DNA of 42,363 bases from Desulfuromonas sp. TF (GTDB taxonomy: Bacteria; Desulfobacterota; Desulfuromonadia; Desulfuromonadales; ATBO01), in NCBI RefSeq assembly GCF_000472285.1, contig NZ_KI421415.1, forward strand, positions 174,582-216,944, read 5' to 3'. Positions 6,232-9,794 of the stretch are shown piece after piece. The notes under the pieces were generated by a model. The model saw only the letters and a list, made by a program, of their open reading frames with translations. It did not search any database and was not told where the DNA came from. The first letter of the stretch is position 1. The number at the start of each line of letters is the position of its first letter. Position numbers and translations under genes: made by a program.

Positions 6232-6660
6232 TCAGGTCAGTCTGCCGAGCAGGCGGGCTATGGTTTCAAAGGATCCGACCAACTCCTCCTGCTCCTCATC
6301 GGACATCTTCGCCAGGACTCTTCGGTACCCATCGATAATCCCCTGTCGAAGCTTGGCGATCAGATCCTCGCCGTTGTCGGTGAGACGAATGATTACCTGG
6401 CGCCGGTTGGCCTCATCCAGATTCCTCTCGACCACCCCCTCGCCGACGAGTCGGTCGACCATCTGGCTGGCGCTGCTCATGGCGACCCCCAGTTCCCGGG
6501 CCAGATCCCCCAGCGAACACTCCCTCCGGTCGGCAATGGTCAGCAAAGTCTTGTACTGGTTGTAGGTCAGGTCCATCCCTTCATGGACCAGGCTCCTTAA
6601 TCGCCCCATCCGCCCCATGAGAAGCGGATAGAGGCTGGCAATCCTTTCAATACGTTCCAC
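6232..6660 (-). CDS. MarR-family transcriptional regulator
   Basis: This is a 142-residue winged-helix regulator. Helix-turn-helix sequence LGDLARELGVAMSSASQMVDRL lies about residues 50-71 (shown here by its start and end, core ELGVAMSSASQMV), followed by the wing residues DEANRRQVIIRLT. These are typical of MarR dimers, which usually repress and release DNA on binding a phenolic or other small ligand. The start is GTG at 6660, supported by AGGAG nine bases upstream. It is the first gene before hemG on this strand, so control of porphyrinogen oxidase is plausible. A strong promoter with an inverted repeat over its -10 lies immediately upstream, which suggests autorepression. The effector is unknown. 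Confidence 0.9.
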   Translation of the reverse strand: MERIERIASLYPLLMGRMGRLRSLVHEGMDLTYNQYKTLLTIADRRECSLGDLARELGVAMSSASQMVDRLVGEGVVERNLDEANRRQVIIRLTDNGEDLIAKLRQGIIDGYRRVLAKMSDEEQEELVGSFETIARLLGRLT

Positions 6661-6803: not shown

Positions 6804-7352
6804 CTACTCGCCCTTCTCATCGAGAAAGGCCTGCTTCTGCTGGAATTCTTCTCGAAGGTGGGGATCGAGTTCGAGGAGAAGAGCACGGGCAAGGGTCAGT
6901 CGGGCGGAGGAATAGTCCTGGCGAGCTATCTGGACCGCAGCCAGGGTGTCGAGAACGGCGCCGTCCCGGGGTGTTTCAACAGCGGCTCTTTCCGCCCATT
7001 CGAGCGCTTTTTCCGCCTCTCCGGACTGAAGGAGAACCCAGGCCAGGTTGTTCATGGCCTCAGCATTATCCGCTTCGCGGCGCAGGGCGAGCAGATAGCT
7101 CTTCCCGGCCTGCCGCAAGTCGCCGCGGGCCGCCAGAACATTTCCCCGATTGATCAACGGCCGGGCCCATTCGTCTGCCATTTCAGCGGCACGTTCATAC
7201 TCGCGCAGGGCCAGATCTATTTCGCCCCGCTGCTGGTACGACACTCCCAGGTCGTTATGCTGTCGGGCGTCCAGCGGATCGTTGAGAACGATGATCCGCG
7301 GCAGGGAGCAGCCGGCAAGAAGAAAAACGATTAGAAGTATCGGAAAACGCAT
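6804..7352 (-). CDS. TPR lipoprotein, last gene of the PA2779/PA2778 operon
   Basis: This is a 182-residue predicted lipoprotein. The signal peptide ends in LLAGC with the lipidated Cys at 15. The rest is made of about four tetratricopeptide repeats (about residues 30-167), with motif rows such as HNDLGVSYQQRGEIDLALRE and AMNNLAWVLLQSGEAEKALE. TPRs are protein-docking scaffolds; here the protein is probably anchored on the periplasmic face of a membrane. It starts three bases after the stop of the C39-like peptidase, so the two are almost certainly co-translated and may act together. In related loci a TPR region can accompany or be fused to the peptidase. No enzymatic motif is seen. Confidence 0.85.
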   Translation of the reverse strand: MRFPILLIVFLLAGCSLPRIIVLNDPLDARQHNDLGVSYQQRGEIDLALREYERAAEMADEWARPLINRGNVLAARGDLRQAGKSYLLALRREADNAEAMNNLAWVLLQSGEAEKALEWAERAAVETPRDGAVLDTLAAVQIARQDYSSARLTLARALLLELDPHLREEFQQKQAFLDEKGE

Positions 7353-7355
7353 GGG

Positions 7356-7889
7356 CTATTCCAGATAGAGGTAAAGATGATTCATCTTCTCCCACCGTGC
7401 AAGAAGGTCGTCGGACTTGACGAAGACCCCCTCTTGAATTCCGGCATGGGCCAGAAAACCTTCGGCTCCGTAACCGAAAACGACGAGGTAATGGGGCCGG
7501 GTCGCCACCCAGAATCCCGTTTCCACAGGGATCAGCACTGGGCGTCCTGCATCGATCTGCCGCCGAAGCAAGGGCAGGTCGCCGCGTCCGGAGCGGGTGA
7601 CGAATCCCTGAGCGCGGGCGAAATTCTCCAGATCGGGCAAAAGGGAGCCTTCCAGGGCTGGAGTATAAACGGCCCGGGTCACTTCTGCAACGGAGAGATG
7701 TCTGCCTCGGTGTTCCAGCAGGGAGGCGAGGGCCGCCGGGCCGCAATCGTCGCGACTCTCCTGAGCCCGGAAAGGGACCTCTTCAACGAGGTGAAGCCCC
7801 GGCTGCCCGGGGCTCCCGGGGTGCGACTGAAAGGGGGAGCAGCCGCACCCGCTCAACAGCATGAAAGCAAAAAGGAACCTTAAAATCAC
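7356..7889 (-). CDS. PA2778-type C39-like cysteine peptidase lipoprotein
   Basis: This is a 177-residue protein with a lipoprotein signal (LLSGC, Cys 15) and a papain-like C39 fold. The oxyanion Gln is Q43, the nucleophile is C49 in DDCGPAAL and the base is H133 in PHYLVVFGY. The Asp-Pro that follows the His in classical C39 bacteriocin-leader peptidases is replaced by AHAG. It matches the family named after Pseudomonas PA2778, whose function is not established. There is no ABC transporter domain, unlike true bacteriocin exporters. The start is GTG, overlapping the stop of the upstream PA2779-type gene by four bases (GTGA), which implies translational coupling. A likely substrate is one of the two small membrane proteins encoded upstream, but this is inference. 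Confidence 0.85.
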   Translation of the reverse strand: MILRFLFAFMLLSGCGCSPFQSHPGSPGQPGLHLVEEVPFRAQESRDDCGPAALASLLEHRGRHLSVAEVTRAVYTPALEGSLLPDLENFARAQGFVTRSGRGDLPLLRRQIDAGRPVLIPVETGFWVATRPHYLVVFGYGAEGFLAHAGIQEGVFVKSDDLLARWEKMNHLYLYLE

Positions 7890-8290
7890 CGGATAACGAT
7901 TTCCCTGTCCATGAGTTTCATGATCACGACCACCAGAAAGACGATCAGCAGCACGGCAATGACCGCCTCGAGGACGCTGCCGGCCGCCACATCCTTGGAC
8001 AGGCCGGCCAGCTGATGAAGCTGTTCATCACTCATCGTCGGAAGTTTGGCGGATACCTCCTCCGGAGACAGACCGAAGTCGGACAGTCGCTGGGCCACCA
8101 CCTGCTGCTCGAGTGCCTGACGAATCATTTCGATCTGCGCCTGTCTTTCGGCGCCGAAGGTACCGTCCGCAAGTCGACTGCCGATCAGAGCCGTATTCCC
8201 GTTGGCCGGAACCAGGGAAAGAAAGCTGAAGGCGATCAGAACCATCCAGCAGATGCGAGCATCCAGTATCCATAGGCGCGGCAACGACAT
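7886..8290 (-). CDS. PA2779-family small membrane protein, copy 2
   Basis: This is a 134-residue protein. An N-terminal hydrophobic segment (about 14-28) ends in the conserved SLVPANG. A charged helical region follows with RQALEQQVVAQRL, GLSPEEVSAKLPTMSDEQL and a C-terminal transmembrane helix (about 104-125) ending in a basic tail. It is homologous along its length to the gene just upstream (8317-8721), so the pair is a tandem duplication. GGAGAG lies six bases before the ATG. The topology suggests a short periplasmic or cytoplasmic loop between two membrane anchors, or a cleaved signal plus a tail anchor. The family has no assigned function; the neighbouring peptidase is its usual partner. 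Confidence 0.85.
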   Translation of the reverse strand: MSLPRLWILDARICWMVLIAFSFLSLVPANGNTALIGSRLADGTFGAERQAQIEMIRQALEQQVVAQRLSDFGLSPEEVSAKLPTMSDEQLHQLAGLSKDVAAGSVLEAVIAVLLIVFLVVVIMKLMDREIVIR

Positions 8291-8316
8291 ATCAGACTCT
8301 CCTTTTTTTCCTTCGA

Positions 8317-8721
8317 CTATTTGACGATCACCTGTTTGTCGGTCACCTTGAGGATGACGATCACCAGCAGAACGATGACCAGAATCGCGATCACCGCTCC
8401 GAGAATGCCGCCCTCCCCCAGGCTTTCCGAGAGGGAGGCCAGCTGGTGAAGCTGCTCATCGCTCAGGGTCGGAAGCTTGGCGGACACCTCTTCGGGGCTC
8501 AAACCGTAATCGGCAAGCCGCTGAACAACCACTTCCCGCTCCAGGGTCTGACGGATCGTTTCGATCTCCGCCTCCCTTTGCATCAGGGACTCCCCGCCGG
8601 AGAGGCGACTTTCGATCAGCGATGCGCTGCCGTTCGCCGGGATCAGGGAAAGACAGCAGAACGCGAAGAGCACCATCCAGCATATGCGGATATCAAGAAC
8701 CCAACGACTTCTGTCGTACAT
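8317..8721 (-). CDS. PA2779-family small membrane protein, copy 1
   Basis: This is a 134-residue protein of the same length and plan as its downstream paralogue: hydrophobic N-terminal segment with SLIPANG, charged middle region with IRQTLEREVVVQRL and PEEVSAKLPTLSDEQL, and a C-terminal transmembrane helix. Unlike the second copy it has GEGG just before that helix, a double-glycine resembling C39 cleavage sites. The start is the ATG at 8721, six bases after GGAGG; an ATG two codons earlier abuts the ribosome site and an even longer in-frame extension crosses the promoter. It is the first gene of the four-gene operon. Function is unknown. Confidence 0.85.
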   Translation of the reverse strand: MYDRSRWVLDIRICWMVLFAFCCLSLIPANGSASLIESRLSGGESLMQREAEIETIRQTLEREVVVQRLADYGLSPEEVSAKLPTLSDEQLHQLASLSESLGEGGILGAVIAILVIVLLVIVILKVTDKQVIVK

Positions 8722-8897: not shown

Positions 8898-9794
8898 ATG
8901 GCCAAAGATTATTACGCCGTCCTCGGCGTTCCCCGGGACGCCACCGCCGAGGCCATCAAGAAATCCTATCGAAAACTGGCCCTCAAGTATCACCCGGACA
9001 AGAACCCCGGCGACAAAAAAGCCGAGGAGAAGTTCAAGGAGATTACCGAGGCCTATGCCGTCCTGTCGGACGCGGAGAAGCGTAAGCAGTACGACCAGTT
9101 CGGCGAGACGGGATTTCACCAGAGGTTCTCCCAGGAGGATATTTTCCGCGGCTTCGACGTCGGCGACATCTTTCGAGAATTCGGATTCGGCACCGACGAC
9201 GTTTTCAGCCATGTCTTCGGCGGCGGTTACGGCAGCCGGACGACCTTCCATGGGGCCGGCCAGCCGCGGACCATCAAGGGACAGGATTTCGTCCTCCGCC
9301 TTGCGATCCCCTTTCGCCAGGCGATACTCGGCGGTGAACGGCGCGTCGATTATCGCCGGGACGGACGGGCGGAGCATCTGCAGGTGCGCATCCCGGCAGG
9401 GGTGGAGTCCGGCCAGAAGCTGCGCGTGGGCGGTAAAGGAGGGAAAAGTCCCACCGGCGGCCCTCCCGGAGACCTGTTCCTGGAGATCGAGGTGGATGCC
9501 GACCCGGTTTTTACCCGCGAGGGGAGTGATCTGCTGGTAAGGGTAAAAGTCCCTTTCAGCGGCGTCTGTCTCGGCACGTCCGTCGAAGTCCCCACTCTGG
9601 AGGGCCCCAAAAGGGTCAAGGTCCCCGCCGGAATGGCGGGAGGAGGGAAGATCCGTTTGAAGGGATTCGGGGCTCCTCACCGTAGCAAAGGGGGCAAGGG
9701 GGACCTCTTTGCCATCATCGAAGTGGCGGTGCCGACCACGCTGACCCCGGCGCAGAAGGCTCTGGTGGAAAAGCTGAGAGACGAGGGGCTCTAA
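8898..9794 (+). CDS. DnaJ/CbpA-type co-chaperone without zinc finger
   Basis: This is a 298-residue type II J-protein that would stimulate DnaK ATPase and deliver substrates. The J domain (1-70) has the HPD motif at H32-D34. A Gly/Phe-rich stretch (about 75-115, [16 protein letters not shown]) follows. The C-terminal substrate-binding beta-domains run from about 120 to the end ([47 protein letters not shown]; each shown only as a short landmark). The four CxxCxGxG zinc motifs of DnaJ are missing, so CbpA-like is the better name. GAGGAG precedes the ATG. It has its own promoter and is transcribed away from the PA2779/PA2778 operon. Confidence 0.93.

Follow-up and report, generated by a model that had tools for sequence, protein, structure and literature searches.

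The cleavage motif of the C39 (double-glycine) peptidases is GG, GA or GS, with hydrophobic residues at positions -4, -7 and -12 (PMC10885120), and the active site of these enzymes is completed by an Asp that is followed by a Pro; in CvaB, the D121A, D121S and D121N variants are all inactive, and the Pro is also essential (PMC3335142). The C39 domains of ComA, PCAT1 and LahT are cytoplasmic, fused to transporters, retain the catalytic Asp and cut leader peptides before export. A C39 peptidase of the periplasm, FapD, is encoded in the Fap amyloid operon of Pseudomonas, and amyloid secretion requires its active Cys; the 2017 paper on this enzyme sought GG and GA motifs in the partner proteins and called its target unclear (PMC5557850). 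The locus analyzed here encodes a C39-type peptidase, a TPR lipoprotein and two small proteins of the PA2779 family. A comparable plan is seen in LapG- and sortase-type processing, where an envelope cysteine enzyme targets a small-residue motif in an exported protein associated with the membrane, although the enzyme families and the substrates are different.

Searches of the open-licence PMC literature yielded no function for either DUF6627/PA2779 or PA2778. The effect of a transposon located between PA2779 and PA2780 has been traced to PA2780 (bswR), and the account of a changed start codon in PA2778, as far as its description of this gene goes, gives no function for PA2778. In Pseudomonas stutzeri, the promoter of a PA2779-family gene was one of those selected from RNA-seq data for strong, constitutive expression, and it was subsequently placed in the group equal to a reference promoter (PMC10155442). 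The PA2779-family protein may therefore be abundant in this species.

Gene content and family assignment

The window, i.e., the entire analyzed stretch of 42,363 nucleotides from Desulfuromonas sp. TF, contains, on the minus strand between positions 8721 and 6804, four tightly packed ORFs, all of which were recovered as described in the sequence-only reading, where they were considered a four-gene envelope set. The first two genes (8317..8721 and 7886..8290, minus strand) each encode a 134 aa protein of the PA2779 family, with matches to NF033919 (84 and 82 bits; cut-off 40) and to Pfam DUF6627 (PF20332; 39 bits each, cut-off 27), the two copies being 62% identical to each other. Protein 1 comprises a signal peptide, a helical outer domain, a C-terminal membrane helix and a short basic tail. 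The next two genes encode a C39-type peptidase of 177 aa that starts with GTG (7356..7889, minus strand) and a TPR lipoprotein of 182 aa (6804..7352, minus strand); the signal sequences of these proteins end in the lipobox-like motifs LSGC and LAGC, respectively, in agreement with the lipid anchors previously assigned to both.

The spacing of the genes is about as tight as originally read: the second PA2779 gene and the peptidase gene overlap by 4 bases (GTGA), and the peptidase and TPR genes are 3 bases apart, but the gap between the two PA2779 genes is 26 bases, not 27. A single promoter had also been proposed to serve all four genes; a scan with the sigma-70 consensus gave no minus-strand site upstream of position 8721, and this proposal is accordingly left without backing from the scan, although such a promoter could still exist. 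The divergent neighbour of the module (8898-9794, plus strand) reads by eye as a DnaJ/CbpA-type chaperone, and the small gene downstream (6232-6660, minus strand), also named by eye, as a MarR-type regulator. A defence system was considered and rejected, as none of the four proteins is matched by PADLOC.

The window peptidase scores above the gathering cut-off of the Pfam C39 family (PF03412; 34 bits, cut-off 22) and also above the cut-off of Pfam C39_2. Against the PA2778 model (NF033920; 255 positions, cut-off 150 bits), it scores 77 bits over positions 2-138 and stays below the cut-off because half of this model is TPR; the TPR half is matched by the product of the adjacent gene (32 bits over positions 166-251). 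Judged by these model matches, the peptidase and TPR genes of the window are a split, divergent relative of PA2778. The window thus shares its gene pair with the PA2778 and PA2779 families but differs in that the peptidase and the TPR protein are separate and PA2779 is duplicated.

Both forms of PA2778 are present in the window's phylum, for which a sample of 297 genomes was searched: NF033920 matches are full-length in some genomes, whereas in others they are peptidase-only, often followed by a TPR-only match. Among the 71 peptidase genes with a score of at least 60 bits in the phylum loci that were read (window excluded), 16 encode a fusion with the TPR part and 50 are directly followed by a TPR gene; for 4 no TPR was found, and 1 lies at a contig end. 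Because the peptidase and the TPR protein are fused in a single polypeptide in other genomes, the usual gene-fusion inference is that they act together, which bears out the role of peptidase partner originally suggested for the TPR protein. In one genome of the window's order (G178, locus L004), a fused peptidase-TPR gene is accompanied by one PA2779 gene of another subtype, in contrast to the window, where the former is split and the latter duplicated; this PA2779 and the one of Pelovirga terrestris (L140; Desulfuromonadia at NCBI) do not differ over the aligned stretch.

Conservation of the module across genomes

PA2779 is present in 73 of the 297 phylum genomes, i.e., the module is common in this phylum. 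A strong peptidase match was detected in 70 of these 73 genomes vs. 4 of the 224 genomes without PA2779, and 3 of the latter 4 matches begin within the first 130 bases of a contig. The Fisher p value for this co-occurrence is 5e-59, a number that ignores the relatedness of the genomes and depends on a score limit chosen after the list had been seen. The peptidase gene is located no more than 1 kb downstream of PA2779 on the same strand in 63 of the 70 genomes; the remaining seven include five with the two genes on different contigs, one with a longer gap and one in which the peptidase is upstream.

Named genomes were searched with patterns derived from the peptidase and TPR parts only, independently of PA2779. 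This search produced 80 loci, 78 of which carry PA2779 (77 directly upstream and one, L184, nearby on the opposite strand), and in the other two the match starts close to a contig end (at 61 and 109 bases). The named and phylum sets share four PA2779 proteins. The titles of the named loci include delta-, gamma- and betaproteobacteria and Bdellovibrionales, among others. In family f44, PA2779 is found in 36 of 199 genomes, and all 30 loci that were read carry peptidase and TPR matches as well. Given that it recurs both in the phylum-wide sample and in the named genomes, the four-gene arrangement is more than chance, and PA2779, the C39 peptidase and the TPR protein form a conserved module. The sequence-only reading, which took these genes to belong together, had named rare co-occurrence in other genomes as its refutation; the neighbourhood survey found the opposite (70/73, 78/80 and 30/30).

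Clustering of the gene calls from 140 loci revealed recurrence of the PA2779-C39-TPR module alone, along with its shadow ORFs. The sole other large cluster, from 30 loci, was rejected as a source of additional partners: it consists mostly of sensor kinases and response regulators, unrelated genes that share domains. All other gene groups are found in at most 7 loci. In particular, genes for export, modification or immunity do not recur next to the module in these 140 loci, which argues against a bacteriocin-like system with the outer domain of PA2779 as the leader and the hydrophobic C-terminal segment as the active peptide; a double-glycine site followed by a hydrophobic segment would fit such a system, but we consider it extremely improbable. 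Unlike PCAT/AMS transporters, in which a C39 domain is fused to an ABC exporter or encoded next to one, the window peptidase lacks a transporter domain, and no exporter recurs next to the module in the 140 loci.

Fold, active site and location of the peptidase

The structural model of the window peptidase (mean pLDDT 87) is most similar to ComA (Z 19.0, rmsd 1.8 over 132 residues), followed by 3erv, a putative C39-like peptidase (18.4), LahT with its leader (18.1) and PCAT1 (17.9), where matches within 1 Z are counted as tied; Foldseek likewise matched the model to double-glycine peptidases. The sequence search of solved structures, for which peptidase-only input was used after the whole alignment drew mainly TPR proteins, gave ComA as the best match of the window peptidase (E 6e-6), and 3erv (6e-7), ComA (1e-4) and LahT (8e-4) as the matches of the family profile. 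The peptidase model thus fits the double-glycine peptidases best.

The Gln-Cys-His set, previously read as intact, is indeed in place (Gln43, Cys49 and His133 in the window), and across 152 peptidases, the Cys is present in 152, the His in 150 and the Gln in 147. At the Asp-Pro position of the C39 enzymes, in contrast, most relatives have Ser, Thr or Ala followed by Gly, with Ala149 in the window, so that of the Cys-His-Asp triad and its Gln, the window peptidase has the Gln, Cys and His but not the Asp. Given this loss, either another residue assists the His, or a dyad suffices, or the protein does not cut. A column that is Asn or Asp in 147 of the 152 peptidases, ten residues before the His, corresponds to Glu123 in the window and maps to the end of the neighbouring strand in the model; ComA has Ile at this position. 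This column may stand in for the lost Asp, but it is a candidate only, as 3erv has Asn there in addition to Asp-Pro.

The replacement of the third catalytic Asp and the next Pro, both of which are essential in CvaB (PMC3335142), is what would be expected if the peptidase were dead and only bound its partner, like the C39-like domain of HlyB, the TPR and C39 proteins being a chaperone or scaffold for PA2779. In the dead HlyB-type domain, however, the Cys itself is lost (PMC8277102), unlike in the present family, which keeps the Cys without exception and the His and Gln nearly so; we therefore regard a purely binding role as quite improbable.

With a loose pattern, a Cys before the peptidase domain was found in 63 of the 71 phylum peptidases and in all 80 named ones, and the strict lipobox pattern in 46 of 71 and 74 of 80, respectively. 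Eight phylum peptidases lack the Cys: one is cut by a contig end, and seven (L018, L020-L023, L026 and L027) have a plain signal sequence. Because these seven peptidases have no lipobox Cys, the lipid anchor is not universal. C39 activity in the periplasm has a precedent in the published FapD (PMC5557850), which resembles the present enzyme in being a C39 Cys peptidase that is exported to the periplasm and is separate from any ABC transporter. As far as the published description of FapD allows comparison, the two differ in that FapD belongs to an amyloid secretion operon (fapABCDEF), whereas the peptidase described here is accompanied by a TPR protein and linked to a membrane protein that carries an explicit doublet. 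With the C39 domains of ComA, PCAT1 and LahT, the module shares the fold, the Gln-Cys-His set and, in a linked protein, an amphipathic helix followed by GG, GA or GS, but here both the enzyme and the site are predicted to be outside the cytoplasm, there is no transporter, and the Asp is replaced.

The PA2779 doublet and its possible cleavage

In all 83 PA2779 proteins of the named set, the C-terminal membrane helix is immediately preceded by GG (64 proteins), GA (10) or GS (9). The same doublets are found in 72 of the 85 proteins of the phylum set, including the two from the window, the others being AG (8), GT (3), GK (1) and GQ (1), and in 25 of the 31 proteins of the f44 set, along with AG (5) and GE (1). 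The first residue of the doublet is Gly or Ala in all 168 proteins of the named and phylum sets combined, and the only invariant columns of alignment A7 are Gly73 and Gly104. Elsewhere in the outer domain, GG, GA or GS reaches no more than 12.5% at any one place. The conserved GG/GA/GS doublet beside the PA2779 membrane helix is a new observation of this work. In the window, the predicted cleavage doublets are Gly104-Gly105 in protein 1 (codons 8407..8412, minus strand) and Gly104-Ser105 in protein 2 (codons 7976..7981, minus strand).

Upstream of the doublet, PA2779 proteins have mostly large hydrophobic residues at positions -5, -8, -12 and -15, so that the helix is of the same kind as that of the C39 motif, except for a shift of one residue at two positions. 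In the AlphaFold model of PA2779, which is of middling quality (pLDDT 73, pTM 0.50), the doublet falls within loop 101-105, which connects helix 88-100 to the membrane helix (106-131); comparison of this model with the PDB gave no fold match at E<3. Sequence matches of PA2779 to solved structures are weak, and the best of them, a lysozyme entry (E 1.5e-4), was judged to be a chance hit. The signal peptide ends with a conserved Ala in 83 of 85 PA2779 proteins. The tail after the membrane helix has mean charges of +1.5 and +1.2, and the 25 residues before the helix have mean charges of -2.6 and -2.8; by the positive-inside rule, the doublet is therefore predicted to be outside the cytoplasm, on the side expected for the exported peptidase.

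A natural exception is found in G256 (L111:2876-3421), a genome listed as 100% complete, which has a PA2779-like gene, directly followed by the TPR gene (E 7e-30), but no strong peptidase match. The PA2779-like protein has Asn-Ser-Gly-Asp before the helix in place of the doublet. In this one case, loss of the doublet seems to go with absence of the peptidase. Two other genomes with PA2779 and no strong peptidase match provide little information: G152 is interrupted by contig ends, and G093, in 710 contigs, keeps GG.

Taken together, these observations incline us to the view that an exported C39-type peptidase with a TPR partner cuts the membrane-anchored PA2779 at GG, GA or GS and frees its helical outer domain. 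Under this scheme, PA2779 would be exported by Sec, with the signal peptide removed at the conserved Ala, and held in the inner membrane by the C-terminal helix, which would leave the helical domain in the periplasm and the short basic tail inside. The peptidase, exported and apparently lipid-anchored in most genomes, would act with its TPR partner: as co-conservation, fold and site suggest, it would bind the amphipathic helix near the membrane and cut after GG, GA or GS, similarly to the action of the cytoplasmic C39 enzymes on leader peptides. The products would be a soluble helical protein of approximately 70 residues with Gly-Gly or Gly-Ser at its C-terminus, and a membrane stub of approximately 30 residues. 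Of the two activities originally suggested for the peptidase, trimming or tethering of the PA2779 proteins, trimming gains a predicted site beside the membrane helix, whereas tethering finds no support.

Co-conservation suits a complex as well as an enzyme and its substrate, and PA2779 might instead be a partner of the peptidase in the membrane, or its regulator, with the Gly pair as a flexible hinge and other envelope proteins as the targets. In a crude control of 14 other ORFs that have a C-terminal helix, 6 also had GG, GA or GS near it, compared to 75 of 81 PA2779 proteins, and the 13 deviating doublets among the 85 phylum proteins also are compatible with a hinge. A hinge, however, would not require the exclusive use of GG, GA and GS, the published C39 preference, that is seen in 83 of 83 named proteins, and the doublet is gone in the one case, G256, where the peptidase is missing; we consider the partner role unlikely.

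The C-terminus of PA2779 resembles the sortase and GlyGly-CTERM tags. This tripartite organization (small-residue motif, membrane helix and basic tail), combined with a dedicated Cys enzyme, raises the prospect that cutting is coupled to transfer, such that PA2779 would carry a C-terminal sorting tag and the enzyme would join the freed end to another molecule in a sortase-like manner. The fold is that of the C39 hydrolases, and in a search with 26 PA2779 members (E up to 10), no GlyGly-CTERM or bacteriocin-leader model of NCBIfam was among the 25 of 29 families listed, with the HMMER filters hiding weak matches; coupled transfer appears very unlikely.

As to cleavage of PA2779 itself, several features may be held against it: the Asp-Pro pair is replaced; 13 of 85 phylum and 6 of 31 f44 doublets deviate; the hydrophobic pattern is shifted; the Gly pair may be a mere hinge; some genomes encode additional PA2779 copies away from the peptidase gene; and none of the 25 of 29 families listed for PA2779 is a known double-glycine leader family. 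The broader proposal, a widespread extracytoplasmic double-glycine pathway in which a transporterless C39 peptidase, altered at the third catalytic residue and assisted by a TPR adaptor, sheds the small helical domain of PA2779, is put forward as tentative, with a likelihood somewhat short of even. If PA2779 is indeed cut at the conserved doublet, two orphan families would gain a joint biochemical role at once, a periplasmic C39 peptidase would get a clear substrate and site, and periplasmic C39 enzymes would gain a simple test system.

Additional PA2779 copies, for which the stretch that was read gave no peptidase match, are found in family f24 at loci L078, L092, L093 and L095 (G150, G057, G175 and G199) and at loci L098, L100, L102 and L103 (G222, G122, G222 and G019). 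These copies retain GG or AG before the helix, and several PA2779 substrates could possibly share one peptidase.
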